A DNA stretch of 20,419 nucleotides, from positions 1 to 20,419 of IMG/VR virus record IMGVR_UViG_3300005337_000055. The stretch is one strand, 5' to 3'. The first letter of the stretch is position 1. Each line of letters starts with the position of its first letter. The notes below the pieces were generated by a model, which saw nothing but the letters and a program-made list of their open reading frames with translations, was not told the DNA's origin and ran no database searches. The position numbers and the translations under genes are program-made. Positions 88-18,883 of the stretch are shown here, piece after piece. Origin of the DNA: a virus.

Positions 88-90
88 GTG

Positions 91-777
91 ATGTGGAACC
101 TCGCCCGCCGCCCGAAGCGGCACTCATACTCTAGCATCTCCACCTACCTGGAGTGCCCGGCGTCCTACGCCTACACGTATCTCCAGGGCCGCAAGACCCT
201 GGAGACCGCCCCAATGATGCGGGGGACGAGGCTCCATAAGCAGGCCGAGGACTACGTGAGGGACCTTACCCGTGTGGCCCCGGTCCCCTATGAGCTTCGC
301 CGCGTTGGAGTGCTCCTCCATCAGCTCCGTGAGAAGGGGGCCAAGGCAGAGGAGGTGTGGCTGCTCGATCAGCATTGGAACCCCACGGACAACCAAGACT
401 ACGCCCGCGTCAAAGCCATCGTAGACGTACACTACATAAACCAGGACATCCTCTATGTCTTCGACCACAAGTCAGGTCGACAATATCCAAGCCATGTCGA
501 TCAACTTGAGCTTTACTCCGTCATTGGACTTCTCAAGTACCCAAGTGCGAAACGCGTTGAGTCGGGCGCTATCTATATTGACGCAGGAAATACAGGTTCC
601 GAGGGGAGCATGCTCCGTGAAATGCTCCCCCACTATATTAAAAGGTGGGATGGGTACATTGGACGAATGGAAGCAGATACAGATTTTCAGCCGACTCCTG
701 GAAATCATTGTGGAAGGTGTGATCACTCACGATTCAATGGGGGACCCTGTACCGCCGCCCCCGCCAAGTCAAAATAA
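91..777 (+). CDS. PD-(D/E)XK nuclease, Cas4/RecB-like with predicted Fe-S cysteines
   Basis: About 228 residues. Numbering from the GTG at 88, the RecB/Cas4-type nuclease order is visible: an N-terminal SxxSxxxYxxCP segment with Cys23, RGTRLH with His50, Asp113 in AIVDVHY, the core D-x-K as Asp126/Lys128 in VFDHKSG, and QLELYS with Gln139/Tyr143. Cys208, Cys211 and Cys221 near the C-terminus together with Cys23 give the four cysteines expected for a 4Fe-4S cluster in Cas4/AddB-type enzymes. The expected activity is metal-dependent DNA exonuclease or endonuclease, probably in phage recombination or host-DNA breakdown. No cas gene or CRISPR array is nearby, so it is not called Cas4. The start may be GTG 88 or ATG 91; neither has a clear Shine-Dalgarno. 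From about base 475 onward the gene is visibly richer in A/T and poorer in G runs than its first half. Confidence 0.82.
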   Translation: MWNLARRPKRHSYSSISTYLECPASYAYTYLQGRKTLETAPMMRGTRLHKQAEDYVRDLTRVAPVPYELRRVGVLLHQLREKGAKAEEVWLLDQHWNPTDNQDYARVKAIVDVHYINQDILYVFDHKSGRQYPSHVDQLELYSVIGLLKYPSAKRVESGAIYIDAGNTGSEGSMLREMLPHYIKRWDGYIGRMEADTDFQPTPGNHCGRCDHSRFNGGPCTAAPAKSK

Positions 778-835: not shown

Positions 836-1108
836 GTGGTCGAGTACGCGAAACACCGCGGAGTGTTAGCGCGCAAGCTGTCCTTCGGGGAAGGATGGCC
901 AGACTACATGTTTCTGTACCGGGGCCGCATCCTCTTCATCGAGTTCAAGCAGCCGGGGGGACGACAACGTCCCCTACAGAAGTATGTGGGTAGGCTACTC
1001 AGGGAACAGGGGTTCCAGGTAGAGTTGATAGATAACCTAATTGACGGCCGAGAGGCTATTAGAAAGTGGATTGATGGACCAACCAATAGTGTTGACGGAG
1101 TGGCGTGA
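836..1108 (+). CDS. VRR-NUC domain nuclease
   Basis: A 90-residue protein that is essentially one VRR-NUC domain (PD-(D/E)XK superfamily, found in FAN1 and in many stand-alone phage proteins). Visible motifs are GWPDYM (the G-x-PD motif), FIEFKQPGG (the E-x-K motif) and a downstream Gln in PLQKYVG. The expected role is a structure-specific nuclease in phage replication or recombination. The GTG at 836 is the first standard start after the in-frame stop at 788-790, but the codons just upstream (815-835) read ESGIQAK, which looks like the usual N-terminus of this domain and includes its conserved Glu. The true start may therefore be a rare ATC at 809, which has AGAGGG 6 nt upstream. The gene overlaps the next CDS by about 35 nt. 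Confidence 0.8.
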   Translation: MVEYAKHRGVLARKLSFGEGWPDYMFLYRGRILFIEFKQPGGRQRPLQKYVGRLLREQGFQVELIDNLIDGREAIRKWIDGPTNSVDGVA

Positions 1109-1898
1109 ATTCTCACGCGTGATGATCGAGACAGCTGATATCGACCCATCCTACCCCGTCATAGCGCACCTATGCGAGACCCGCCACGAACCGTGGTTGG
1201 GTCGCTTCTTCCTCCACTACATGTGGTTCTACAACATCCGAGAGGCCATCCGCGCCGCCGACGATACGGACGACCGCACCTTCTGGCGTCGCTGCGAGGT
1301 AGACGCGGCATCCTCCCGGGTCTCCCGGGGTGGCGCCCGCCGACGCTTCCGGGGGGCACTAGCCTCAACGGCTATCCTCTTGATGCAGGGGAAGAACATG
1401 ACCCCGTGGCAGATCATGACCGACCTCTACCGCGCCCGGTACGTCGACATCTACACCCACGTGGAGAGGAACTACAAGGGATGCCAGATTGGCCCCTACT
1501 ATCGGTGGAAGCTGATGGATTGGTTCGACATCTGCCTCGGCTGGCCCGTGTCCCTGTCGATCCTCGAAGCGACCAAGGTCCTCCCCGACAACCCTCGGGA
1601 GCACATCGGCACCTACTTCCCCGGCCTGTCGTTCGAGCAGTGTCTCCTCAAAGTGGACGGGTTCGTGAAGGACATTCCCCACTTCGTCAAGCCGGGGGTG
1701 GGCTGCGGTATTGGGGAGGTCGAGACCATCCTCTGTATCCTCAAGGGCTACTTCGACACGCGGTCGATCAAGGTCGGGGGCGACATCCTGGAGTACCGTC
1801 ACAAGCTGGCGGACCTCCCCGAGCTTCAAGCGAAGTGCCCCCCGGTCATCGTGCCGGCGAACAAGTGGGTTTGCGGGGAGTACAAGTATGTCCCGTGA
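1074..1898 (+). CDS. Putative amino acid:DNA transferase (AADT/ADDT-like), base hypermodification
   Basis: 274 residues from the ATG at 1074; TTG 1041 would add 11 residues and ATG 1122 would remove 16. The protein is helical and rich in Trp, Tyr and Arg. Distinctive segments are TRHEPWLGRFFLHYMWFYN (36-54), SRGGARRRFRG (84-94), GCQIGPYYRWKLMD (136-149), and a C-terminal ETILCILKGY (217-226) followed by GGD (235-237). This pattern matches my recollection of the amino acid:DNA transferase family of phages with hypermodified thymine, in which an amino acid or amine displaces the pyrophosphate of phosphorylated 5-hmdU in DNA. A 5-hmdU kinase, an aGPT-PPlase-like protein and a TS homologue lie 2-4 kb downstream, which supports the call. 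The family assignment was made by eye; a different helical DNA-modification protein is possible. Confidence 0.58.
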   Translation: MDQPIVLTEWREFSRVMIETADIDPSYPVIAHLCETRHEPWLGRFFLHYMWFYNIREAIRAADDTDDRTFWRRCEVDAASSRVSRGGARRRFRGALASTAILLMQGKNMTPWQIMTDLYRARYVDIYTHVERNYKGCQIGPYYRWKLMDWFDICLGWPVSLSILEATKVLPDNPREHIGTYFPGLSFEQCLLKVDGFVKDIPHFVKPGVGCGIGEVETILCILKGYFDTRSIKVGGDILEYRHKLADLPELQAKCPPVIVPANKWVCGEYKYVP

Positions 1899-1910
1899 GT
1901 GGAGAGATCA

Positions 1911-2072
1911 ATGACTGAAGAAGACTACGACCGCATATCCGAGGTCAAGGAAGCCCTTTCGCGCAAGATAACCAAGCTGGTTAACGACACGCTTGCTAAA
2001 GCCAAGGTAACCCCTGAGCAAGAGGACGTGATTCGCACCCAACTAACTGAAGAGTACAGGTTCTGGAAATGA
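1911..2072 (+). CDS. Small charged helical protein, unknown
   Basis: A 53-residue ORF starting at ATG 1911 with a very good Shine-Dalgarno (GGAGAG, 1901-1906). Its TGA overlaps the ATG of the helicase gene (ATGA at 2069-2072), so the two are probably translationally coupled. The product is highly charged (E/K/D/R) and looks fully alpha-helical, with no Cys, no membrane segment and no motif that I recognise. It could be a cofactor or inhibitor peptide acting with the helicase, but nothing in the sequence proves this. Strong RBS and exact coupling are the main reasons to believe it is real. Confidence 0.68.
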   Translation: MTEEDYDRISEVKEALSRKITKLVNDTLAKAKVTPEQEDVIRTQLTEEYRFWK

Positions 2073-3436
2073 GCAAAGTTTGGAACCCCAAGCCGTACCA
2101 AGAGCAGGCTATCGAGTTCGCCCTCACCCGGGAGGGGTCGGGGCTGATGTTGGACCCCGGTCTGGGGAAGACATCGATCACCCTCGCCTGTATCTCTCTC
2201 CTCCGACAAGGGGGCGAGATTCGCAAGACCCTTGTTGTGGCTCCCCTACGGGTGTGCAAGTCCGTATGGCCCTCCGAGGGGAAGAAGTGGACCGACTTCA
2301 ATCACCTTCGTATCGTCAACCTCTGCGGCCTCAAGGCTGTCGAGCGGGCGAACCTGCTGGCCCGGGACCACCATGTCTATCTCATCAACCCTGAGTCGTT
2401 GGTCAAAGTCCTGCCTCTTCTGGGGGATGATTTTGATCTACTTGTGCTCGACGAAAGTACGAAGTTCAAGGATACGCAGACGCAGCGGTTCAAGGCCCTC
2501 AAGCCGCTCCTCTACAAGTTCAAGCGACGAATGATCCTGACCGGGACCCCTGTCCCCAACGGGGTCGCCGACCTGTTCGGCCAGATGTACGTCGTTGACT
2601 TGGGGGCCGCTCTAGGCAAGTACATAACCCATTTCCGTATGGAGTTCATGCATCAGGCCCAGGGCGACCTCTACAACTACTACCTAAACCGGGGGGCAGA
2701 GGAGCTCATCTACCGCCGGGTCGAGGGGAAGCTGATGCGTATGGACGCCCGGGACCACCTGGAGATGCCCGAGCTGATCAACTCCTTCATCGAGGTCGAG
2801 TTGCCTACCCCGACGCTCAAGAAGCAGTACAAGCAGCTAGAAGACGACTTCTACACGAAGATCGAGGACGAAGATGTTGCTTCGTTTAACACAGCCGCCG
2901 TTGGGGTCAAGCTCCGTCAAATGGCCAACGGGTTCCTCTACACTGATATCGATACCGACAGGCGGGTCCTCGATCTTCATGACGAGAAGATCGACGCTCT
3001 TGAGGAGCTTGTTGAGGAGATGCAAGGCAGGCCGCTACTTGTTGCTTACGAATTCCAAGCGGACGCTGATCGGATTCTCAAGAGGCTCCCGGGGGCGGTT
3101 GACCTTGGTAAAGTCAAGAACGTCGAGGTCACTATCGACAAGTTTAACCGAGGTGAGATCCCCCTACTCATCGCTCATCCGGCGAGTGCGGGTCACGGCC
3201 TTAACCTCCAGGATGCATGTAACACCGTCTGCTGGTTCGGGATCACGTGGAACCTGGAGCTATACCTTCAGTTCATCGCCCGCGTCTGGCGCCAAGGCCA
3301 AGCCGCCGACGCCGTTATCGTTCACCATATCGTATGTAAGGAGACCAAGGACGAAGATGTAATGAAAGCCCTTGAGGGCAAAGACAAGACCCAAACTAAG
3401 TTTAACAACGCAATTAAAGCTCAACGTAAATCATGA
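2069..3436 (+). CDS. SNF2/superfamily 2 helicase-like ATPase
   Basis: 455 residues with the SF2/SNF2 motif series in order: motif I PGLGKT (30-35), motif II DEST in place of the usual DEAH (128-131), motif III LTGTP (157-161), motif V GHGLNL (375-380) and motif VI QFIARVWRQGQ (401-411). The QxxxRxxRxGQ form of motif VI is typical of SNF2-type dsDNA translocases. The length equals the bare two-RecA-domain core, with no added DNA-binding domain. The likely role is ATP-driven movement on duplex DNA during phage replication, recombination or DNA modification. It starts in an ATGA overlap with the 53-aa gene and ends in an ATGA overlap with the next gene. The family is clear; the job in this phage is not. 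Confidence 0.92.
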   Translation: MSKVWNPKPYQEQAIEFALTREGSGLMLDPGLGKTSITLACISLLRQGGEIRKTLVVAPLRVCKSVWPSEGKKWTDFNHLRIVNLCGLKAVERANLLARDHHVYLINPESLVKVLPLLGDDFDLLVLDESTKFKDTQTQRFKALKPLLYKFKRRMILTGTPVPNGVADLFGQMYVVDLGAALGKYITHFRMEFMHQAQGDLYNYYLNRGAEELIYRRVEGKLMRMDARDHLEMPELINSFIEVELPTPTLKKQYKQLEDDFYTKIEDEDVASFNTAAVGVKLRQMANGFLYTDIDTDRRVLDLHDEKIDALEELVEEMQGRPLLVAYEFQADADRILKRLPGAVDLGKVKNVEVTIDKFNRGEIPLLIAHPASAGHGLNLQDACNTVCWFGITWNLELYLQFIARVWRQGQAADAVIVHHIVCKETKDEDVMKALEGKDKTQTKFNNAIKAQRKS

Positions 3437-3870
3437 ACCCCCGTTATTCCAAGATCCGACAGACCATCATCGACGGAGCCTCTGAAGAGAAACCCCTCAA
3501 CTCCGTGGAGTTGCTCTCCCTTATCTCCGAGGAGACCACGATCAACTCGTTCACGGCCACCCTTACCCAGCTGTGCCGGATCGACCGTTACATCCAACGG
3601 GTCCGCAACTCGAAGGGGAAGTGGGTGTACTGGTACGATCCCTCCAAGAAGGCCAAGATCATCCCGAAGCGGGTCCGCGTGAACGGGGCGAAGGAAGTCG
3701 ACCTTGCTGTGGACCTCTCCCCGCCCGAGCCTCAAAAATCCCCCGTACCGGTGGTTTCCCCAACCGGGACCCTCTCCGTCACCGGCTACATTGTCGAGGA
3801 CGAGTTCGTCATCCTCCGCGTTGGCAACAGCCGCTTCGTCATCCCCTTCGAACAACTCAAACCATTGTGA
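3433..3870 (+). CDS. Winged-helix-like protein of unknown function
   Basis: 145 residues starting at an ATG that overlaps the helicase stop. Residues about 5-65 alternate predicted helices with a closing basic beta-hairpin (KGKWVYWYD), which resembles a winged helix-turn-helix. The middle (about 70-110) is basic then Pro/Ser-rich and looks like a linker, and the last 35 residues (TGYIVEDEFVILRVGNSRF and on) look like a small beta unit. Being coupled to an SNF2 ATPase that lacks its own DNA-binding domain, it could be the DNA-binding partner of that enzyme or a regulator. The fold is inferred from sequence pattern only. Confidence 0.6.
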   Translation: MNPRYSKIRQTIIDGASEEKPLNSVELLSLISEETTINSFTATLTQLCRIDRYIQRVRNSKGKWVYWYDPSKKAKIIPKRVRVNGAKEVDLAVDLSPPEPQKSPVPVVSPTGTLSVTGYIVEDEFVILRVGNSRFVIPFEQLKPL

Positions 3871-4427
3871 CCAAAATCGTTAAGATCCACGGGGCCTCCG
3901 GCTCCGGTAAGACCACCGCCGTCCGCTCCCTGATGGACCACGCCCTGTCGACGGGAATCCTTCACGGGGTAGGGCACAAGGTGGAAGCCTACAACCTTGT
4001 GCTCCCCGGCGTCTATGACCACGTATACGTGATAGGGTCCTACGAGAACAACTGCGGCGGGGTCGACACCATCCCCGACTACCGGACGGTGTTGTCCCTA
4101 GTGGACCACTACCGCTCCCTGGGGGGCCACGTCATCTTCGAGGGGCTGCTCCAGTCCACCTACTATGGTGCGATGGGGGAGCATAGCAAGCAATACGGTG
4201 ACGACTACGTGTACGCTTTCCTCGACACGCCGAAGGAAGTGTGTGTCGAGCGCGTCAACGCTCGCCGGGCGCAGCAGGGGACGAAGACAAAGTTCAACCC
4301 CGACAATACCCGCAAGAAGTGGGACACCATCGAGCGCCTCCACAACAAGCTGTTCGGGGTTCATCGCACCGAGACCCTCTACCACGACAAACCCATGTTC
4401 CCCCAACTACTGGAGATTCTGAAGTGA
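3867..4427 (+). CDS. Phage 5-hmdU DNA kinase (P-loop kinase)
   Basis: 186 residues from a GTG that overlaps the previous stop (GTGA, 3867-3870). The Walker A loop GASGSGKT is at residues 9-16. Further segments fit the phage 5-hydroxymethyluracil DNA kinase family: VIGSYENNCGGVDTI, GGHVIFEGLL (probable Walker B/catalytic segment), FLDTPKEVCVERVNARR (lid-type Arg region) and KFNPDNTRKKW. These enzymes phosphorylate 5-hmdU within DNA, the activation step for later amine or amino-acid addition to thymine. Neighbours agree: a putative AADT upstream, an aGPT-PPlase/HMUDK-helical protein and a TS homologue downstream. A GGAG at 4412-4415 near its 3' end serves the next gene. A generic nucleotide kinase is the alternative, but the SYE...CGG...DTI signature argues against it. 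Confidence 0.82.
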   Translation: MTKIVKIHGASGSGKTTAVRSLMDHALSTGILHGVGHKVEAYNLVLPGVYDHVYVIGSYENNCGGVDTIPDYRTVLSLVDHYRSLGGHVIFEGLLQSTYYGAMGEHSKQYGDDYVYAFLDTPKEVCVERVNARRAQQGTKTKFNPDNTRKKWDTIERLHNKLFGVHRTETLYHDKPMFPQLLEILK

Positions 4428-4636
4428 CCCAAATGTCGTCTAGCGATTACAACAAGATCGTACAGGCCAAGCTCAACTACGAGCAGGCTGTCGAGGAGGG
4501 GCTCAAGGCGGCCGGCTGGCATAAGGGCTGGCGCAAGAAGAACAACCTCACCTTCTGGATCAAGGACATCCCCGGCCAGGGCATCTGTACGGCCCTGTCG
4601 GGGGAGGAAGCCCTCAAGTGGGAGTACGAGCTGTGA
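4424..4636 (+). CDS. Small conserved-context protein, unknown
   Basis: 70 residues from GTG 4424, which overlaps the kinase stop (GTGA) and has GGAG 8 nt upstream; an in-frame ATG lies at 4433. The N-terminal half is a charged helix (EQAVEEGLKAAGWHKGWRKK) and the C-terminal half could form a short beta unit (LTFWIKDIPGQGICTAL) ending in acidic EEALKWEYEL. I do not recognise the family. It lies exactly between the 5-hmdU kinase and the aGPT-PPlase-like gene with coupled starts on both sides, so a role as an accessory subunit of the base-modification enzymes is plausible but unproven. Confidence 0.7.
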   Translation: MTQMSSSDYNKIVQAKLNYEQAVEEGLKAAGWHKGWRKKNNLTFWIKDIPGQGICTALSGEEALKWEYEL

Positions 4637-5472
4637 CCCCTCCCGAGTCCAAGTACTGGGTCGACTTCACCTACTGGATCGAGGAGCGTGAACAGATCCG
4701 TATCAAGAAGGAGGACCTCAAGACGCCGCCCCCGTGGACCAAAGACCGGATCATGGCGACGACCCGCTTCTGTAACATTCGACGAGAGGACGACAAGGTA
4801 ACGCGATGGATCAGGCAAAACTGGAGCGATCCCAACTTCGACCACCCCAACCTGGCCTTCTCGATGTGTCTGGCCCGTATTGTGAACTGGCCCGAGACCT
4901 TGATGGCTCTTGGGTTCCCCGACGTGTGGTCCCCGGCTCAGTTCATATCTCGAATGACGGAGTTATCACAGGGTGGGTCAAGGAAGATATGGGGCGGGGC
5001 CTACATGGTTACCGGCGGCTACTCGGCTGGCGGAGAAACCAAGCAACTCATCATGTCTCGTTGTCTTGAGGAGGCGTTTGTACACGCCGCCGAGATAAAC
5101 ACCAGCTATTCGTGCGAGCAGGCGTTCCGCGAGATCACCCAAGCCCGGGGCTTCTCCACCTTCCTGGGGGCCCAGGTCGTGGCGGACCTTAAGTACACGC
5201 CGCTCCTCTCGGGGTCCAGGGACCGCCTGATATTCTGTGCCCCCGGGCCGGGGTCGACAATGGGGCTTAACTTCCTCCACGGGAGGGAGCCCAAGGCGTC
5301 GATCACCTTCGATCGGTTCTTCCAAGAGGTAAATGAGATACGCTACTGGTTGGAAGAAAACCTGGTTACCCTAGACGCGCACGACACTCAAAACTGCCTG
5401 TGCGAATTCAGCAAGTACGTCCGCATCAAATACCTGGGCGGGCGAGCCAAGAACGGATACAAAGCATGTTGA
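4633..5472 (+). CDS. Putative DNA base hypermodification protein (aGPT-PPlase / HMUDK-helical family)
   Basis: 279 residues from a GTG overlapping the previous stop (GTGA). The family signature is strong: FTYWIEEREQIRIKKE (12-27), PPPWTKDRI (32-40), TRFCNIRREDDKVTRWI (44-60), AYMVTGG (123-129), GFSTFLGAQVVADLKY (173-188), APGPGST (203-209) and a C-terminal HDTQNCLCEFSKYVRIK (250-266). This is the group described as alpha-glutamyl/putrescinyl thymine pyrophosphorylase and the helical domain linked to 5-hmdU DNA kinase. The predicted action is on phosphorylated hmdU in phage DNA during conversion to a hypermodified thymine. The separate kinase gene two ORFs upstream supplies the P-loop domain that is fused in some relatives. 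The exact reaction is predicted from the family, not shown. Confidence 0.8.
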   Translation: MTPPESKYWVDFTYWIEEREQIRIKKEDLKTPPPWTKDRIMATTRFCNIRREDDKVTRWIRQNWSDPNFDHPNLAFSMCLARIVNWPETLMALGFPDVWSPAQFISRMTELSQGGSRKIWGGAYMVTGGYSAGGETKQLIMSRCLEEAFVHAAEINTSYSCEQAFREITQARGFSTFLGAQVVADLKYTPLLSGSRDRLIFCAPGPGSTMGLNFLHGREPKASITFDRFFQEVNEIRYWLEENLVTLDAHDTQNCLCEFSKYVRIKYLGGRAKNGYKAC

Positions 5473-6467
5473 CTCTCAAAGGCCCCAACGTTAACGCCCT
5501 GTTCCCCGAGGCGTTGTGGCGAATGAAGATGGACGGGGTACTTGCCGACTCCCGTAATGGGGCGGTACGCAAGTTCCCCTACCCGGTCCTGATCAAGTAC
5601 GAGCGGCCCCAAGATCGGGTGCTCTTCGACCCCCTACGGGACGCCAACCCGTTCTTCCACCTGTTCGAGTCTATCTGGATGCTCGCGGGTCGCAACGACG
5701 TCACCTTCCCCGCCAGGTTCGCTAAGCAGATGAAGGCGTACTCTGACGATGGGGCTACTCTCCATGGGGCCTACGGGTTCCGTTGGCGGGAGCACTTCGG
5801 GGAGGACCAACTGACGGGGATCATCGACGACCTCCAGCGCGACCCGACCACCCGCCGTAGCGTCCTCGCAATGTGGGACTCCTACATCGACCCACCCGTA
5901 GCCCGCGTTGGAGGCAAAGATGTCCCGTGCAATACTCATGCTTACTTTGCTGTCCGCGACGGTAAACTTGATCTTACTGTTTGCAATCGTAGCAACGATC
6001 TGGTATGGGGCTGCTTCGGCGCCAACGCCGTACACATGTCGATAATGCATGAGTACGTGGCCCGGGGAGCGGGGCTGGAGCAGGGGGTCTACTACCAGTT
6101 CACCAACGACCTCCATCTGTACGAGCAACACTTCAACATGATGGCGCTCGGGGGCCACGCGGACCATACGGACCCCTACCTGTCGGGCGAGTGTCGCTCC
6201 CTCCCCCTGTTTGGGGCCCCAGCAGCTCGTGAGGACTTCGACAAGGACTGTGAGGACTTCTGTATCGATCAGACGCGCCGTAGCCGCACGATGTTCTTCC
6301 AGGGCACGGTAAAGCCCATGTATCTCGCTTGGCGCTACCACAGCCTCGGGGAGACAGGGAATGCCGAGCGGGCGGTACAGGTGACCGAGGCCACCGACTG
6401 GCGCAAGGCTGGGCTCGAATGGTTGATGCGACGCTCGGCTCAGAAGTTGATGATCGTAAAACGGTAA
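5466..6467 (+). CDS. Thymidylate synthase family enzyme, probable dUMP hydroxymethylase
   Basis: 333 residues from ATG 5466, overlapping the previous gene by 7 nt. TS-fold landmarks: phosphate-binding RR at 130-131 (DPTTRRSVLAMW), catalytic Cys155 in VPCNTHAYF, and NRSNDLVWGCFGANAVH (174-190), equivalent to the RSxDxxxGxPFN motif of classical TS. The GANAVH form, one residue longer than in cellular ThyA, is the type found in phage TS homologues. Asn187 in the base-recognition region favours dUMP over dCMP. In a 5-hmdU phage this enzyme makes 5-hydroxymethyl-dUMP from dUMP with methylene-THF and water; an ordinary dTMP-forming TS cannot be excluded from sequence alone. Its position directly after the hypermodification protein supports hydroxymethylase. 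Confidence 0.83.
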   Translation: MLTLKGPNVNALFPEALWRMKMDGVLADSRNGAVRKFPYPVLIKYERPQDRVLFDPLRDANPFFHLFESIWMLAGRNDVTFPARFAKQMKAYSDDGATLHGAYGFRWREHFGEDQLTGIIDDLQRDPTTRRSVLAMWDSYIDPPVARVGGKDVPCNTHAYFAVRDGKLDLTVCNRSNDLVWGCFGANAVHMSIMHEYVARGAGLEQGVYYQFTNDLHLYEQHFNMMALGGHADHTDPYLSGECRSLPLFGAPAAREDFDKDCEDFCIDQTRRSRTMFFQGTVKPMYLAWRYHSLGETGNAERAVQVTEATDWRKAGLEWLMRRSAQKLMIVKR

Positions 6468-6469
6468 CA

Positions 6470-6545
6470 AGGGGGTCGCGTAGGAGCGATTTTCCGCCGT
6501 CCGGTAGGGTAGCCTAGACCCCCTCCCGTTCGCGTCCCCTACGCG
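6470..6545 (+). other. Two competing inverted repeats in the TS-HD intergenic region
   Basis: The 148-nt gap 6468-6615 has no ORF. AGGGGGTC (6470-6477) pairs with GACCCCCT (6517-6524), and TAGG/CCTA (6481-6484/6513-6516) can stack inside. Alternatively CGCGTAGG (6477-6484) pairs perfectly with CCTACGCG (6538-6545). The left arms overlap, so the two hairpins exclude each other. Neither is followed by a T run, so this is not a simple terminator. Regulatory meaning is inferred. Confidence 0.45.
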
Positions 6546-6604
6546 CCCCTATCCGCCCTTCCCGGCCCCCTCCCGACCCCGACCGATCCCCCCGAAACCG
6601 ACCC
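6519..6604. repeat. C-tract block (G-quadruplex-capable on the minus strand)
   Basis: At least ten runs of three to six C occur between 6519 and 6604, with short spacers and almost no G runs on the plus strand. The complementary strand carries four or more G3+ tracts with 1-7 nt loops around 6556-6580, meeting the usual G4 motif. It forms the leader of the HD-phosphohydrolase gene, whose ATG at 6616 has only a weak purine stretch (GAAAGA) as ribosome site. Confidence 0.55.
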
Positions 6605-6615
6605 GAAAGAAAACC

Positions 6616-7095
6616 ATGAAAAATTTCATGACGCTTTATGAAGCAGGAGCCGTCAAGCGGTACCATACTCACCTCACGATACGGGAGCAGGACCTAGCGG
6701 CCCACTCGTGGGGGGTGGCTATGATCGTGATGCAGATAGCCCCCAACCGACCGTGGATCCTCCGGGCCGCACTGCTACACGACCTCCACGAAATCGCCCT
6801 GGGGGACATCCCCTACACCGCCAAGCGGAAATACCAGGCAGTAGCTGACGTGGAGGGGCCCATCTGTAGGGACTTCCAGGGGGAGCATGGTTACTCCACC
6901 GAAAAGCTCGAACCGGGTGACTTCGCCATACTCAAGTGGGCCGATATGTTCGAGTGTTACCTGTGGTCCCGGCGGGAAGTTGAGATGGGTAACCGTCACC
7001 TCGTGAAGGTCATGAATACCGCTTGGGCCAAGATCACCGCCGCTGACGCTCCGACGCCTGAAGCAGCCGCCCTCGCCCGGGAGCTACACCTATGA
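6616..7095 (+). CDS. HD-domain 5'-deoxynucleotidase (YfbR-like)
   Basis: 159 residues. HD metal ligands are visible: His30 in AAHSWGVA, His55-Asp56 in LLHDLHE, the Glu59-GDIP64 stretch typical of YfbR-type 5'-deoxynucleotidases, and Asp110 in KWADMFE. YfbR-like enzymes remove the phosphate from deoxynucleoside monophosphates. In phages that replace thymine, a dTMP-directed nucleotidase keeps dTTP out of the precursor pool, and the location directly after the TS homologue fits that role; actual substrate preference cannot be read from the sequence. Its stop overlaps the ATG of the next gene. The preceding 148-nt gap suggests separate expression from the TS gene. Confidence 0.82.
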   Translation: MKNFMTLYEAGAVKRYHTHLTIREQDLAAHSWGVAMIVMQIAPNRPWILRAALLHDLHEIALGDIPYTAKRKYQAVADVEGPICRDFQGEHGYSTEKLEPGDFAILKWADMFECYLWSRREVEMGNRHLVKVMNTAWAKITAADAPTPEAAALARELHL

Positions 7096-7340
7096 CTCTG
7101 TTTGAGGCCATGGTTAAGCTGGCCCGGGAGCACGGGTCGGATACCCAGGCCGCTGCCGCCTACGGGATGACTAAGTCACAGTGGGCTAGGCTCAAGAATA
7201 ACAAGCAACACCCTACCCTGAGAACCCTCGACAACCTGGGGCTAGTCCCCACCTATGAATGGAGCAACGATGACGACACAAGGCGCACACTACAAGACCG
7301 CCCTCGGCGAAGAACATCACCAGCGGGCGATGCGGCTTAA
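7092..7340 (+). CDS. Small helix-turn-helix protein
   Basis: 82 residues, starting in an ATGA overlap with the HD gene. Residues about 17-50 (DTQAAAAYGMTKSQWARL and onward to the PTLRTLDNLGL segment) fit a Cro/XRE-type helix-turn-helix: a short helix, a turn at YGM, a recognition helix around TKSQWARLKN, then a third helix. The C-terminal 25 residues are charged and Arg-rich and lie over the first 71 nt of the DUF3310 gene in another frame, so that part is probably a disordered extension. The likely role is a small DNA-binding regulator. Good palindromic targets within the window would be the spacers of the two promoters at 780-808 and 7575-7603, though that link is speculative. Confidence 0.65.
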   Translation: MTLFEAMVKLAREHGSDTQAAAAYGMTKSQWARLKNNKQHPTLRTLDNLGLVPTYEWSNDDDTRRTLQDRPRRRTSPAGDAA

Positions 7341-7563
7341 GCTCAACTGGTACGCTGGGAACATCACCAAATACGCCGAGCGGGCTGAGCATAAGGGTCA
7401 GCTGGTGGAAGACCTCATCAAGATCGTGGACTACGCCCTGATGTGGATCGAACCCCAGGAAATGTCTAAGGAACAATGGAACCGTCTTCAAGTCGTACTC
7501 AACAGGAAGCCGGTTGTATGGATCGGTAGCGAGTCATCGGACAGTAGCGGGAAAACGACTTAG
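7270..7563 (+). CDS. DUF3310 (SaV-like) protein, possible nucleotide kinase
   Basis: 97 residues from ATG 7270, with GGAG 5 nt upstream; ATG 7255 would add five residues. The DUF3310 pattern is clear: HY near the start (7-8), then AGNITKYAERAEHKGQ (29-44) and VEDLIKIVDYAL (46-57). This family includes T7 gp1.7, which is reported to act as a dTMP/dGMP kinase. Since this phage carries a TS homologue predicted to make hmdUMP, a nucleotide-kinase role lifting hmdUMP toward the triphosphate is an attractive guess. No Walker motif is present, which is also true of gp1.7. The C-terminus is Ser-rich. It ends the region-A operon; a hairpin starts on its stop codon (TAGGGG-TTTC-CCCCTA, 7561-7576). Confidence 0.72.
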   Translation: MTTQGAHYKTALGEEHHQRAMRLKLNWYAGNITKYAERAEHKGQLVEDLIKIVDYALMWIEPQEMSKEQWNRLQVVLNRKPVVWIGSESSDSSGKTT

Positions 7564-7859: not shown

Positions 7860-8026
7860 CCACCAAAGAAGCCGCAGACCGAATCAGGTACTGGGCTAAA
7901 CTCAACTTTAAGCCGATCCATATGAGCTACGCGCTCTTCATGGATCTGGCCAACGAATTGGACCCCAAGGAGGGGGCTGATACCGTGCCGGCGGAACCGG
8001 TTGTTTCACAGGAAATCGCATCATGA
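7850..8026 (+). CDS. Small protein, unknown
   Basis: 58 residues from ATG 7850, overlapping the membrane-protein stop by 10 nt and ending in an ATGA overlap with the next gene. An earlier in-frame start at 7811 would make 71 residues. The first 40 residues look helical (TTKEAADRIRYWAKLNF, then a short helix with MDLANEL), followed by an acidic, Pro/Val-containing tail. No motif is recognised. Its coupled position is the main evidence that it is translated. Confidence 0.5.
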   Translation: MALTTKEAADRIRYWAKLNFKPIHMSYALFMDLANELDPKEGADTVPAEPVVSQEIAS

Positions 8027-8406
8027 AGAAGTCTCTCATCGCATTGGCGCTCGTCGCTCTGTCGTTCGGCGCAGCCGCTGCTGAACTGGGTGTCGGCGTC
8101 GCCGGCGCAACCGGTGGTTCGACCTCCAGCGGCTCGATCGCTGCCGGTGGCCAACAAGGCTCGGCCATCCTCGGCGTGTCCGGCGGTCGCCAGACCGCAA
8201 CGGCCTCGGGCGCTGCCCAGAACACGACCGTGGTGAACAACACCGGTGGCCAATCGACCTCGGCGAACACGAACACCGGCAGCGCGACGCAAGTCGGCGG
8301 CTCGCTGGGCTTCGCGGGCCAGGCCGGTGCCTCGGGCGCGACCAACACCAGCGGCGCGTCGGGCCAGTTCGGTCTGTTCAAGGGCTTCGTCTTCGCAACC
8401 CCGTAA
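8023..8406 (+). CDS. Secreted Gly/Ser/Thr/Ala-rich low-complexity protein
   Basis: 127 residues with a clear Sec signal peptide (MKK, a hydrophobic core, A18-A19-A20 before the cut at Glu21) and an AGGAAA ribosome site 7 nt before the ATG. The mature part is almost entirely small residues (G, S, A, T, N, Q, V) with no Cys and few charges, ending in FKGFVFATP. It should be exported to the periplasm or beyond. Its signal peptide is a close sister of that of the next gene, so one probably arose by duplication. It lacks the G-run-rich codon style of region A and of the virion arm. Function unknown; an extracellular or periplasmic exclusion or adhesion factor is possible. Confidence 0.75.
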   Translation: MKKSLIALALVALSFGAAAAELGVGVAGATGGSTSSGSIAAGGQQGSAILGVSGGRQTATASGAAQNTTVVNNTGGQSTSANTNTGSATQVGGSLGFAGQAGASGATNTSGASGQFGLFKGFVFATP

Positions 8407-8489: not shown

Positions 8490-9254
8490 ATGAAGAAAAC
8501 TCTCATCGCACTGGCTCTTGTCGCCAGCTTCGGAGCAACCGCCCAGACCACGGTGGACTCCACCAGCGGCTCCAGCTCCAACTCCGGCGCTGCCAGCCAG
8601 TCCGGCGCGGCGGTCAGTTCCACCAACTCGGGGAACACCAGCGTGACCGCGACGGGCAACCAAGCCACCAGCGGCTCGCAGTCGGGCAGCATGTCCGGTG
8701 CCGTCAGCGACTCGCGCTCGGGCGCACTGGGCAACGTGATCAACCTCGACCAGTCGGTGCCGTCGAACCAGACGATCAACCAGAACGTGTCGGGCTCGAC
8801 CACCAACAACTCGACCAGCCACTCCACGGTGGGCGGCGGTACCAACAACACGGACAACGTCAAGTACAGCGGCACCATCGAGAACCGTGCCTCCGGGGGC
8901 TACAACAATACGTCCACCGAGACGGTCAACCAGAACGTCCACTACTCGGGTAGCCAGACCGTCAAGAATGTGCCCAGCATCGCCATGTCGGGTCCCGCGT
9001 CGGGTCCCTGCACGGGCGCGTCGGGTGGCCTCGGCCTCGCGGGTCCCGGCTGGGGACTGGGCCTGAACGGCAGCGCCGTGATGGTGGACTGCCGCCTGCG
9101 CGAGAACACGCGGGTGCTGGGCATGGGCATGCAGTCGCTCGACGGCGCGGCCAACCCGCTGGAAAAGGGCGAGGCCACGGTGATGTTCATGGACGCGATG
9201 CGCGCTCTGGCAGCGTACAACAAGACCATCTACCAAGCCGAGGTGAAGAAGTGA
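8490..9254 (+). CDS. Secreted Ser/Asn/Thr-rich protein with a two-Cys C-terminal module
   Basis: 254 residues with a Sec signal peptide (A16-T17-A18 before Gln19) and AGGA 5 nt before the ATG. Residues 19-160 are Ser/Thr/Asn/Gly-rich with repeated NQNV and SGS elements, like a beta-solenoid or adhesin spacer. Residues 168-250 differ: GPxSGPCTGASGGLG with Cys174, GLGL repeats, Cys201 in DCRLRENTRVLGMGM, then an Ala-rich helix. A similar Cys-GxS...G...CxxRxxR...MGM ending is, as I recall, common in uncharacterised phage proteins. The two cysteines could form a disulphide after export. It is preceded by a terminator and coupled (GTGA) to the Acb2-like gene. Function unknown. Confidence 0.78.
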   Translation: MKKTLIALALVASFGATAQTTVDSTSGSSSNSGAASQSGAAVSSTNSGNTSVTATGNQATSGSQSGSMSGAVSDSRSGALGNVINLDQSVPSNQTINQNVSGSTTNNSTSHSTVGGGTNNTDNVKYSGTIENRASGGYNNTSTETVNQNVHYSGSQTVKNVPSIAMSGPASGPCTGASGGLGLAGPGWGLGLNGSAVMVDCRLRENTRVLGMGMQSLDGAANPLEKGEATVMFMDAMRALAAYNKTIYQAEVKK

Positions 9255-10162: not shown

Positions 10163-11523
10163 TCCTCCGCCAACCCTTCAATTAGGCTCTCTTTGAGAGC
10201 CTTTTTCTTTGCGTCAGCGACGATTGGGGCATAGGCTTGGGTCAGGTACGCCTTCTGTTGGGCGGCAGCGGCCCCCAGCGGGGAGCCTTGGAGAAGCCCT
10301 CCGCCAGATACAGGGTAGGAAGTAGCCCCACCGGACAGGCCCCCGGCTCCCGTAGATCCCGGGGAGTTCCCAGAAGTTCCTCGATTATTCCCCGTAGGAC
10401 CCAAAATAGCACCCGCCCCGTAGTTACCCAGCATCCCCCCGAGGCGACCAGCGATTTGACCAGATAATCCAGCTTCGGAGAGGCCCGATCCAGCCAAAGA
10501 ACCCAGACCCCCAGCCAAAGCTCCCTGTCTCCAGTCGCCCCCGGAGAGGCCCGCGCCGAGGCCCCCCGTCCCCGAACTCACGAGAGCCCGGGCCGCCCAA
10601 TTGGGGAGACCTGTGGCCCCCGCGAGGGCGCTACCGCCCCAACCACCGAGGCCCCCGGTCAGGGCACCTATCCCGGCCCCCTGTAGAATGTTCTTACCTT
10701 GGATACCGGACGAGATGCCCCCTTGGGCGGCCCCCGACAAGGCTCCCTGCCCCCAGGCGGGGAGGCCCGCGTACCAACTCTGTAGGGACCCCAGGGTGCC
10801 CCCTAGCCCAGATCCACCCCCAGCGGTAGCTCCAGCTGCACCGGCTCCCGGGGCGGCTCCAGCTCCAGCTCCAGCCGCGCCTGCTCCAGCGCCTCCTGCT
10901 CCATACGCTGCAAGCGCAGAGCCTCCGAGGAATCCTCCACCGAGAATGAGAGCAGCCATGACGCCATCTTGATTCTCCTGTGCCCACGAGCCGCGCTCGC
11001 GGGCGTGATAGAGGTGTGGGTCCCCCGCTGGGGTCAACACATTCCCCTGGTTTTGGTAAAGTGTGGTCGCCGCCGACCGGGGGTCCCCCGTGGTCCCGTC
11101 CCAGCCCGAGGACATGCCCGAGACGTTGACGTAACCCTTGTCGTTGATGTACTTGTCGAGACCGTTCTTGTAAAGCGTATAGGCGTCGTAGGTGTTGTTC
11201 CCCTGGCCGGGGGTCGCAGGGGTGATCGTACCGTCCGGGTTGTATTTGGGGGTCCCCCCGCTCAGGCCCCTCAACTGGGAGGCGTCGCCCGTATACCCCA
11301 GCCGGTCCCCGAGGGCCAGCATAGGGTCTAGGTTGTAGCTGACGTTACCGGGGTCCCACCCCATTCCCTGGACACTCGTGCGGTCCCCGGTAGGCTGGTA
11401 GTCGTTACCCAAGAAAGCGTTGATACCGAACCCGAGCTGACCTGAATTGCCCGCGTTGAGCGTCATGTTCAACAGTGACCGACCGGCGTCACTGTTGAGG
11501 TCGTATGTCGGGGGGGTAGGCAC
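10159..11523 (-). CDS. Gly/Ala-rich internal virion / DNA ejection protein
   Basis: 454 residues from a GTG at 11523 with GGAGAAG upstream, 0 nt after the previous stop (TAAGTG). Residues 1-180 are polar with Asn, Asp, Gly and Tyr. From about 188 to 240 comes a strongly hydrophobic Gly/Ala stretch (ALILGGGFLGGSALAA, then GAGAGAAGAGAGAAPG), partly encoded by tandem CTCCAG units (10857-10874 on the plus strand). Glycine-zipper-like segments follow to about 400, and the C-terminus is a charged helix (KKKALKESLIEGL). This composition resembles podovirus pilot/ejection proteins that enter the host envelope during DNA delivery. It is the last gene of the leftward virion operon. The role is inferred from composition and position. 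Confidence 0.7.
   Translation of the reverse strand: MPTPPTYDLNSDAGRSLLNMTLNAGNSGQLGFGINAFLGNDYQPTGDRTSVQGMGWDPGNVSYNLDPMLALGDRLGYTGDASQLRGLSGGTPKYNPDGTITPATPGQGNNTYDAYTLYKNGLDKYINDKGYVNVSGMSSGWDGTTGDPRSAATTLYQNQGNVLTPAGDPHLYHARERGSWAQENQDGVMAALILGGGFLGGSALAAYGAGGAGAGAAGAGAGAAPGAGAAGATAGGGSGLGGTLGSLQSWYAGLPAWGQGALSGAAQGGISSGIQGKNILQGAGIGALTGGLGGWGGSALAGATGLPNWAARALVSSGTGGLGAGLSGGDWRQGALAGGLGSLAGSGLSEAGLSGQIAGRLGGMLGNYGAGAILGPTGNNRGTSGNSPGSTGAGGLSGGATSYPVSGGGLLQGSPLGAAAAQQKAYLTQAYAPIVADAKKKALKESLIEGLAED
10184..10210 (+). terminator. Strong Rho-independent terminator for rightward transcription
   Basis: Perfect 8-bp stem AGGCTCTC (10184-10191) and GAGAGCCT (10195-10202), TTT loop, followed by TTTTCTTT. 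It ends the rightward operon 21 nt past the last stop codon. It lies wholly inside the 3' coding end of the leftward gene. Read leftward, the hairpin is followed by AATTG, so it should not stop leftward transcription. Confidence 0.85.
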
Positions 11524-11877
11524 TTATCTTCTCCAGCAAGACCGGGGGAGGATCAAACGGGGGTGGCGCTCTACACGAGCACGCCACTCACGGCACCAGC
11601 GACGATGCTGGTGTCGATCGTACTGACGCACGATAGGGTCCACCCCCTGATCGCGCAGGTTGTAGCTACGTTGCTCTTGCTCATAGCGACGTTGCTCGTA
11701 GCGGTTGGTCCGCTCGTCCTGCGGCTGGGCTCGCACGGTGCCCGCGAGAGCCGACAGTACACAGAACGCCAGCCCCGCGGCCAGTAGATTGAACCGGGGA
11801 GCGGAGGGGACCCCCAGGGTAACGAGCACGAACAAGACCAGGGCGACAACCAAGAGGATGACGGTAATGATGTTCAT
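11524..11877 (-). CDS. Small two-helix membrane protein
   Basis: 117 residues, ATG 11877 overlapping the previous stop (ATGA). Residues 3-22 and about 30-48 are hydrophobic helices; the second ends in AGTVRA followed by a polar region, so it could also be a cleaved signal. The remainder is very rich in Arg, Gln, Tyr and Glu (RRYEQEQRSY type), then Arg/His/Trp with Cys95 and Cys114. It is placed among virion genes, between the Gly/Pro-rich protein and the ejection protein. A holin, spanin-like or virion membrane role is possible; I do not recognise a family. Confidence 0.62.
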   Translation of the reverse strand: MNIITVILLVVALVLFVLVTLGVPSAPRFNLLAAGLAFCVLSALAGTVRAQPQDERTNRYEQRRYEQEQRSYNLRDQGVDPIVRQYDRHQHRRWCREWRARVERHPRLILPRSCWRR

Positions 11878-12215
11878 TGGGACCTCGCTCTCAGGATGTC
11901 GATCAGTTGCTGAGCGCGTTGTCCCTGTACGTCGGGGGACATCACTCCTCCGGGGGGTCCTTGGCCCCCAGGAGGAGGGCCACCAGGACCCCCAGGAGGA
12001 GGCATCCCGCCGCCGCCGCCGCCAGGACCACCAGGACCAGGAGGACCTCCGCCACCTTGCATAGCCTGTAGTTGGGCTATCGCTTGGGGGTCACCCGCCT
12101 GGGCCGCTTGTACCAGCCGCATAATGTTGGGATCCATTTGGCCCTGCGGGGGCGGACCTCCCTGGGGAGGCATCATACCCGGTGGGGGACCTTGGGGTGG
12201 CATCTGAGACGACAT
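11874..12215 (-). CDS. Gly/Pro-rich disordered protein
   Basis: 113 residues from ATG 12215 with AGGAG 7 nt upstream. It opens with Pro/Gln/Gly/Met-rich sequence, then a short helical insert (NIMRLVQAAQAGDPQAIAQL, about 30-49), then a GGGGPPGPGGPGGGGGG-type block, and a C-terminal helix (GQRAQQLIDILRARSQ). The first 125 nt overlap the preceding 83-aa ORF in another frame. The two helical pieces joined by flexible Gly/Pro suggest a linker or scaffold-like virion factor. The Gly-X-Pro density is collagen-like but not a strict GXY triplet repeat. Confidence 0.62.
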   Translation of the reverse strand: MSSQMPPQGPPPGMMPPQGGPPPQGQMDPNIMRLVQAAQAGDPQAIAQLQAMQGGGGPPGPGGPGGGGGGMPPPGGPGGPPPGGQGPPGGVMSPDVQGQRAQQLIDILRARSQ

Positions 12216-17968: not shown

Positions 17969-18883
17969 TTACAGCCCGTAGTTCATTTGGTCAGCGGGGG
18001 TCAACACATTGTTGTTGATGTTCCACGTATCGTAGGCGTTGCTGCCCCAGTTCCACAGGTTCTGGGCCCCGCCCCAAAGGTTCCCCAGGCCTGAGGTGAT
18101 CCCGTTGATCCCCCCGAGGGCCTGTATCGCTCCGACGCCGGTGTTCACGTTCTGTTGCCGCTGCGCGATGTCGGCGTTCTCATTCTGACGCTGAGCGTTG
18201 AAGGTGTCCTGGGCCGCCCCGTAGATCGTCTGGGGGATATAGGCCGCACCGGTGGGGACCTTGGTCGCCCATTTGTTCGGATCCAGCGAATCCCGCATAC
18301 CTCCGAGGTTGGTGTTCCCCGACAGGGCTGCGCTGTACTTGTTCTGGATCTCCCCTGCCCCCTGCTGACGTGCGCGCAGGGCCTGGTCGTACTCGGTGTT
18401 CCCCTGTTGATAGCCCGCGAGGATCGCCTTGTTACCGGCGTCAATGCGAGTATTCCCCAAGCTGCGCTCTTGGTCGTTCCACGCGTTGGAGCCCATGGTA
18501 AGCCCCATGGCGGCGGCGCGGGCACGAGCCGCGTCCTCCGACTTCTGAAGCCCCGGGTTCTGGAGCGCGTTCCACGAGTTGATGACCTCTTGGTTGTACT
18601 GCCCCACCTGCGGCATCGCACCAAGACTGGAGTAGTCGAGGCCCTGGCCGATCTGCCCCGCCAGGTTCCCCTGTCCGCCCATGGATTGGTCCCACAGTCC
18701 CTGCGCCGCGCCGCTCAAGGACGTGTTGTTGATCCAGCGACCGTCCGGGGTCTGGTTCCACGTGATGCTCCCCATCGCATTGGTCTGGTCGGGGCGCTGG
18801 GACCACGTAGTGCGACGGGTGGCGTCGTCGTTCGCCGCCTGTTGCTGGGCGGCGAGTCCACCAAAGTCTGGTATTGCGGCCAT
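17969..18883 (-). CDS. Virion structural protein, Asn/Gln/Gly-rich
   Basis: 304 residues; ATG 18883 overlaps the previous stop by one base (TAATG). It is rich in Gln, Asn, Ala and Gly with many Trp. The early segment RPDQTNAMGSITWNQTPDGRW (29-49) is of a type I recall in podovirus tail or internal virion proteins. A helical middle (RARAAAMGLTMGS, RQQGAGEIQNKYS) is followed by a hydrophobic Gly-rich stretch near 245-275 (GAIQALGGINGITSGLGN) that could contact a membrane. It sits between a tail protein and the ejection proteins. The specific function is not recognised. Confidence 0.7.
   Translation of the reverse strand: MAAIPDFGGLAAQQQAANDDATRRTTWSQRPDQTNAMGSITWNQTPDGRWINNTSLSGAAQGLWDQSMGGQGNLAGQIGQGLDYSSLGAMPQVGQYNQEVINSWNALQNPGLQKSEDAARARAAAMGLTMGSNAWNDQERSLGNTRIDAGNKAILAGYQQGNTEYDQALRARQQGAGEIQNKYSAALSGNTNLGGMRDSLDPNKWATKVPTGAAYIPQTIYGAAQDTFNAQRQNENADIAQRQQNVNTGVGAIQALGGINGITSGLGNLWGGAQNLWNWGSNAYDTWNINNNVLTPADQMNYGL

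Follow-up and report, generated by a model that had tools for sequence, protein, structure and literature searches.

Which modification of thymidine is laid down by a virus that carries an amino acid:DNA transferase, a DNA kinase and a thymidylate-synthase homologue in one gene run, and at which base does such a pathway end? This question is raised by record IMGVR_UViG_3300005337_000055 of IMG/VR, which was analyzed over its complete, linear length of 20,419 bases (here called the window). Positions 1074-7563 hold a hypermodification core in which every open reading frame named by an original prediction is present and intact. Very probably these genes form a compact cassette for thymidine hypermodification, of the kind found in phages M6, ViI, phiW-14 and PaMx11, inserted in the replication block of a podovirus-like phage, with an untailored adduct as the most likely product. 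Established here are the identity of the genes, their intact signature residues, the transferase fold and a conserved gene order.

The enzymes of the cassette

The following genes form the enzymatic core:

1074-1898, plus strand: amino acid:DNA transferase (AADT; Pfam family ADDT, PF18724, formerly aGPT-PPlase2), recognized by profile comparison, fold and residues
3867-4427, plus strand, GTG start: predicted P-loop kinase of 5-hydroxymethyldeoxyuridine (5-hmdU) in DNA (HMUDK_HMUD1, PF18748; 40 bits, cut-off 27)
4633-5472, plus strand, GTG start: predicted helical partner of the 5-hmdU DNA kinase (HMUDK_hel, PF18723, formerly aGPT-PPlase1; 127.9 bits, cut-off 25)
5466-6467, plus strand: thymidylate synthase (TS)-like protein, predicted dUMP 5-hydroxymethylase (PF00303, 1.7e-19, 70.4 bits, cut-off 24.3; phrog_5131, E 1.6e-106)
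6616-7095, plus strand: YfbR-like HD phosphohydrolase (PF12917, 1e-11, 45.3 bits; phrog_7076, dATP triphosphohydrolase, 6e-16)
7255-7563, plus strand: DUF3310 (T7 gp1.7-type) protein (PF11753, 3.7e-7, 30.5 bits; phrog_236, nucleotide kinase, 1.9e-10)

With 20-49% identity to its relatives the AADT of the window is divergent; in the PHROG search it matches phrog_6364 with E 5.5e-25. When it was aligned with three relatives and compared by hhalign with the alignment of the AADTs from M6 (gp51), Pam3 and SH-Ab-15599, the match reached 99.9% (E 1.6e-33). Its homologue in the related locus L004 passes the Pfam ADDT cut-off (27.5 bits, cut-off 26.2), which was reached in 6 of the 20 whole records searched, M6 and Pam3 among them. 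The only noteworthy matches of a profile search of the PDB were the solved AADTs 25qc (E 1.9e-15) and 8z2m (6.4e-13). The AlphaFold2 model, built from 30 aligned sequences and with a predicted local distance difference test score (pLDDT) of 94.5, matches 8z2n, the 5-phosphomethyl-dU glycinyltransferase gp46 of PaMx11, with Z 27.2 and 2.2 Å over 247 residues; the next unrelated structure reaches only Z 7.4, and Foldseek recovered the PaMx11 glycinyltransferase with E 5e-11. Residue conservation was assessed over 36-56 sequences per enzyme family. All invariant or nearly invariant AADT residues (D24, P25, Y27, R85, R89, R90, R93, G140, K146, D149, E215, E217, T218 and C221) are kept in the window protein, its family-invariant residues are also found in M6 gp51, and the family motifs DPxY, RGxxRRxxR, GxYxxWK/GxWxxFK..D and ExETxxC are present. 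Owing to the profile comparison and the match of the model to the solved PaMx11 enzyme the assignment of 1074-1898 to the AADT family is secured, and transfer to phosphorylated 5-hmdU is predicted.

With tblastn the window AADT found no match in the phage collection, its homologue from L004 matching 86 phage records, and a scan of viral contigs with the single sequence gave nothing while the alignment-based scan gave 26 loci. Among genome contigs 72 pattern matches were obtained, none of which was confirmed; hence no host or prophage was found there.

The kinase carries the Walker A motif GASGSGKTT, which is conserved together with E92 and R133 among 53 sequences. Its adjacency to HMUDK_hel parallels that of gp54 and gp55 in M6, and M6 gp55 is homologous to the HMUDK_hel of the window. 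With matches beyond chance, 3867-4427 and 4633-5472 are predicted to encode a 5-hmdU DNA kinase with a separate helical partner. The model of this partner (pLDDT 92.8) has as best fold matches the glycinyltransferase (Z 11.0) and helix-hairpin-helix DNA glycosylases (Z ~10), and a sequence search of the PDB gave no match. Because helical proteins often match by chance at Z ~10-11, a role of the modelled protein in base flipping is put forward as a suggestion only.

The same two families were also met apart from each other. No P-loop kinase is detectable in six loci that have HMUDK_hel (L031, L032, L033, L043, L045 and L046), and a search for a P-loop near HMUDK_hel in the kinase-less loci found none; the kinase occurs without HMUDK_hel in L070 and L083, the latter being Rhodoferax phage P26218. 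Kinase and partner are separable in ways that the known pathway does not explain. Homologues of HMUDK_hel are found on bacterial and haloarchaeal plasmids as well (NZ_CP092105, NZ_CP100410, NZ_CP101324 and others), annotated as nucleotide kinase domain-containing proteins, and both phrog_800 and M6 gp54 bear the label “terminase small subunit” on a 5-hmdU kinase.

Among solved structures the TS-like protein is closest to CMP 5-hydroxymethylases (5b6d, 4.8e-18), with all thymidylate synthases ranking below these; it also shares homology with the synthase of M6. The catalytic C155 and R175, D178, N187, H217 and Y219 are conserved. Asn187 is kept at the position that reads uracil in thymidylate synthase, which points to dUMP, not dCMP, as the probable substrate. 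The enzyme is predicted to be a dUMP 5-hydroxymethylase, although hydroxymethylation cannot be proved from sequence. In the HD phosphohydrolase H30, H55, D56 and D110 are conserved; it is probably a nucleotide-pool enzyme, presumably a hydrolase on the dTMP side. The DUF3310 gene is kept as last gene of the cassette in the relatives, and its product is a candidate hmdUMP/dNMP kinase, presumably acting as a T7 gp1.7-type nucleotide kinase.

These identities (AADT, kinase, HMUDK_hel, TS homologue, YfbR-like HD protein and DUF3310 protein) had all been named in the original prediction and are borne out by Pfam and PHROG matches, profile comparison and fold. In a family test fixed beforehand kinase and HMUDK_hel passed Pfam outright, and 1074-1898 was placed in its family via hhalign, the PDB profile search, the homologue from L004 and the fold.

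According to the proposal for M6, ViI and phiW-14, thymine is first replaced by 5-hmdU from a pool of 5-hydroxymethyl-dUTP (hmdUTP), and part of the 5-hmdU is then phosphorylated in DNA by the 5-hmdU kinase, with TG and TC as preferred sites (PMC6449724). By homology the window would encode each step through amino-acid transfer. The TS-like enzyme would make 5-hydroxymethyl-dUMP, and the HD hydrolase together with the DUF3310 protein would skew the nucleotide pool, with the effect that hmdUTP replaces dTTP in replication. Together with its helical, glycosylase-like partner, the P-loop kinase would then phosphorylate 5-hmdU in DNA at a subset of sites, and the AADT would let an amino acid displace the phosphate. 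The end product would be an untailored aminoacyl-methyl-dU, similar to the N-alpha-glycinylthymidine adduct, that may shield the DNA from restriction. The reactions themselves, which amino acid is used and protection from restriction are all inferred.

Conserved gene order and the end product

Two scans of viral contigs gave 44 HMUDK_hel loci and 26 AADT loci, from which duplicates were then removed; the loci were chosen for carrying these genes, which means that the counts given here are not natural frequencies. The order PD-(D/E)XK nuclease, VRR-NUC, AADT, SNF2, kinase, HMUDK_hel, TS-like, HD, DUF3310 is identical in 18 loci, the window included. The longest close relative is G002 (44.8 kb), in which the block comes after a gene for a family A DNA polymerase, and the terminase, a 748-residue portal and the major head protein are encoded elsewhere. 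As polymerase, terminase, portal and head genes are present this record appears near complete. This record and the cultured podovirus P26218 with its 9-nm tail make the term podovirus-like reasonable, if not proven.

Homologues of the flavin adenine dinucleotide (FAD)-dependent lyase, the acetyltransferase, Nmad5, the PALP-type pyridoxal phosphate (PLP) enzyme and the radical S-adenosylmethionine (SAM) enzyme number zero in the window (a fragment), in G002 and in the complete P26218. None of the 18 IMG/VR relatives searched has PALP, and a radical SAM gene occurs in just one of their records, that of L043, whose cassette is devoid of AADT. Because no tailoring gene accompanies the core, the window is assigned to the core pathway and not to the one leading to the M6 or PaMx11 product. 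The same lack of known tailoring enzymes in the window, G002 and P26218 makes an untailored amino-acid adduct of thymine the most likely product as judged from gene content. From the missing radical SAM and PLP genes the original prediction had derived either a simple adduct or tailoring genes located elsewhere, and the former is the better of these two options.

Tailoring genes in the unsequenced part, and thus a complex end product (aminoethyl-, acyl- or methyl-carrying), are improbable but constitute the alternative that survives best. The window is a fragment, and the relatives give this reading some substance, since 16 of their loci hold a methyltransferase-like gene of ~190-267 residues and a few have a glycosyltransferase-like or radical-SAM/SPASM gene in the cassette. 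However, these extra genes sit within the cassette, and that of the window is complete; moreover G002, as closest long relative, and the complete P26218 lack all tailoring enzymes tested.

The gene family of ~190-267 residues has no Pfam match and is found in loci including L002 (3785-4552), L004 (3858-4586), L008 (8330-9085), L020 (8303-9106) and L064 (8806-9567). It occupies the slots between SNF2 and kinase, kinase and HMUDK_hel, or HMUDK_hel and TS, and the window has no member. An FGGxG-type motif and weak similarity to SAM methyltransferases make it a candidate for a new tailoring enzyme. Among relatives without AADT, L033 (8288-9436) and L046 (8683-9924) contain, between SNF2 and HMUDK_hel, a gene that resembles glycosyltransferase 4 by a weak Pfam match, which suggests that in these a sugar instead of an amino acid is placed on hmdU. 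In L043, likewise devoid of AADT, a radical SAM and SPASM protein is encoded at 11044-12012 between HMUDK_hel and TS. The slot proteins of AADT-less relatives were also considered as hidden AADTs, for which profile comparison gave no support.

That modification halts at 5-hmdU or 5-phosphomethyl-dU, with an AADT that is inactive or does something else, is quite unlikely. A sizeable part of the related cassettes have no AADT yet keep kinase, helical or TS genes, which means that the upstream steps can stand alone, and the divergence of the window AADT would fit a loss of function. Against this, all AADT-invariant residues are kept, the fold is as close as 2.2 Å to a solved enzyme, and the gene is found at the same place in 25 loci.

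Several points weigh against the cassette with an untailored adduct that we prefer. About half of the genome is missing from the fragment and remains unseen, and relatives hold unknown or methyltransferase-like genes in the same cassette slots. In a direct Pfam scan the window AADT alone gave no match even at E 10. Its motif GPYxxWK differs from the GPWxxFK of the characterized glycine enzymes, and substrate or product may differ accordingly. To our knowledge, chemical measurements have been made on none of the phages in this group.

The difference in motif extends beyond the window. GPYxxWK or close variants are found in the window AADT, its relatives, phiW-14 and SH-Ab-15599, and GPWxxFK in M6 and PaMx11; in a midpoint-rooted tree the clade of the window AADT is separate from that of M6 and PaMx11. 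In phiW-14 DNA putrescinylthymine was labelled from C5 but not C1 of ornithine (PMC5977210). Because of the motif, the separate clade and the putrescinylthymine of phiW-14, glycine should not be assumed as substrate. More daring, and tentative at best, is the combined proposal that an untailored aminoacyl-thymine, not yet reported as final genomic base, is formed, that the GPYxxWK clade (shared with phiW-14) takes a substrate other than glycine, either an amino acid or an amine, and that the 67-residue protein described below is a new kinase subunit.

The replication block and the interleaved proteins

The core genes are preceded by and interleaved with others:

88-777, plus strand: PD-(D/E)XK (RecB/Cas4-like) exonuclease, replication-block gene upstream of the cassette (phrog_69 exonuclease, E 1.6e-16; position kept in relatives)
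836-1108, plus strand: probable VRR-NUC-type endonuclease, resolvase-like, replication-block gene (phrog_93 endonuclease, E 2.7e-16; position kept; name taken from family context)
1911-2072, plus strand: small protein of 53 residues, seen in the window only (no significant Pfam or PHROG family)
2069-3436, plus strand: SNF2-type DNA helicase/ATPase of the replication block (PF00176, 1.8e-19, 70.4 bits; phrog_62, 3e-132)
3433-3870, plus strand: orphan of 145 residues (no Pfam or PHROG match, no homologue)
4433-4636, plus strand: conserved small protein of 67 residues between kinase and HMUDK_hel (motif shared in 10 loci)
7092-7340, plus strand: small protein of 82 residues (no PHROG match)

Four-base stop-start overlaps (ATGA or GTGA) are found at 2069, 3433, 3867, 4633 and 7092, joining the 53-residue protein to SNF2, SNF2 to the orphan, the orphan to the kinase, the 67-residue protein to HMUDK_hel and the HD gene to the 82-residue protein. 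A 7-base overlap lies at 5466, and a gap of 148 bases (6468-6615) separates the TS-like from the HD gene. The overlaps make translational coupling plausible and support the mostly coupled gene run described in the original prediction.

It had also been proposed that SNF2, a winged-helix-like protein and the small proteins may form a DNA-scanning or access component, weighed here as a dedicated access machine which moves the modifying enzymes along new DNA. SNF2 is indeed part of the coupled run and keeps this place in all loci of identical order. Nevertheless, this idea is not supported and is very unlikely: 1957 phage records have a SNF2 homologue and 115 have HMUDK_hel, and in Stenotrophomonas phage AXL_3 and phage ctUtU524 polA, a PD-(D/E)XK/Cas4-type nuclease and a SNF2-type helicase follow one another, and no kinase, HMUDK_hel or AADT is annotated in their vicinity. 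The SNF2-type helicase of M6 is ~7 kb away from the M6 cassette. Given these record counts and the blocks devoid of modification genes, SNF2 is not a dedicated scanning component and is probably a common phage replication gene instead of a modification enzyme. In 25 loci the gene after VRR-NUC is AADT, and in 11 SNF2 comes next with no AADT between; AADT thus behaves as a removable piece of the block. In the simplest reading the modification genes were inserted into a pre-existing replication block, which would explain their coupling to it.

For the 145-residue orphan the winged helix was not confirmed; no Pfam or PHROG family and no homologue in relatives or phages was found, and profile comparison with other slot proteins gave nothing above chance. 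Lacking relatives in families, related loci and phages it is not a conserved part, which also speaks against its place in an access machine. The 67-residue protein is a different case. It stands upstream of HMUDK_hel in 10 loci with the strongly conserved motif GWxKGWRKKNNLTFWIK...LEDALKWEYEL, and a search of the phage collection gave no match. Among the small and interleaved proteins it is the sole conserved accessory candidate, a putative subunit.

Least probable of all is an ordinary thymidylate synthase within a nucleotide-metabolism cluster, because, although the TS fold is retained along with the residues that bind dUMP, among them the uracil-reading Asn187, the nearest solved protein is a 5-hydroxymethylase, the gene product is homologous to the M6-type synthase, and the gene stands beside a DNA kinase and an AADT which both need 5-hmdU.

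Outside the cassette, the adjoining genes at 8023-8406 and 8490-9254 have signal-peptide-like starts (MKKxLIALALVA) and Ser/Gly/Asn-rich products; both are kept at the same place in G002, and the larger one has no PHROG match. The gene at 18883-20418 belongs to phrog_5107, labelled “amidase”; its G002 homologue comes after a tail protein gene (phrog_6013) among the virion genes, a position that makes the label look doubtful.

Comparison with known systems

By megablast the whole window has no match in the phage collection. The system is not new in kind, since M6, PaMx11, RHph_I65 and P26218 have its core or most of it. Pseudomonas phage M6 (gp51-gp61; NC_007809), which makes 5-(2-aminoethyl)-dU, has AADT, kinase, a separate HMUDK_hel, TS-like, HD and DUF3310 genes in the relative order of the window. 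It differs in possessing the PALP-type PLP enzyme gp52, the radical SAM enzyme gp53 and the Nmad5 protein gp56, all three missing from the window, in lacking the interleaved SNF2 and 67-residue protein, and in an AADT of another clade. Pseudomonas phage PaMx11 (gp46-gp53; 8z2m/8z2n) shares the transferase fold, followed by kinase, HMUDK_hel, TS, HD and DUF3310, but has an FAD-dependent gp47 and an acetyltransferase gp48, neither being found in the window, and GPWxxFK in place of GPYxxWK.

Rhizobium phage RHph_I65 (gp5-gp12; MN988541) has AADT, P-loop kinase, a protein of ~98 residues, HMUDK_hel, TS and DUF3310 in one run, with no PLP or radical SAM gene between these core genes; unlike the window it is a circular record of 54.5 kb, and its AADT belongs to the M6/PaMx11 clade. 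In 2022 Lee et al. reportedly described combinations of these hypermodification genes in viral metagenomes. For HTVC023P-type pelagiphage podoviruses the part of the description available to us reports TS and aGPT-PPlase1 (HMUDK_hel) near polA, read there as thymidine hypermodification, in contrast with the set of the window that includes AADT and kinase (PMC9599517).

What is new, and well supported, is a conserved stripped-down cassette of podovirus type, its tie to the cultured P26218 and one conserved, unexplained protein of 67 residues. Many uncultured podovirus-like phages thus have the thymidine-hypermodification core in their replication block, as a portable cassette devoid of the usual tailoring enzymes. 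The methyltransferase-like, glycosyltransferase-like or radical-SAM genes of relatives in the same slots point to further thymine derivatives.

The nearest cultured counterpart is Rhodoferax podovirus P26218 (gp12-gp18; NC_029061), with a complete genome of 36 kb and a tail of 9 nm by microscopy (PMC4657236). It has a VRR-NUC-type nuclease, SNF2, AADT, kinase, TS-like, HD and DUF3310 in one run, with the structural genes on the other strand, and like the window no known tailoring genes. In P26218, SNF2 precedes AADT, no HMUDK_hel or 67-residue protein was found, and the proteins are 26-38% identical to those of the window. Its gp14-gp15 (L083, 9773-11181), next to TS, are annotated as hypothetical protein (the AADT) and terminase small subunit (the 5-hmdU kinase). 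As P26218 is cultured and carries a close variant of the cassette, the base left by this minimal pathway is directly testable.

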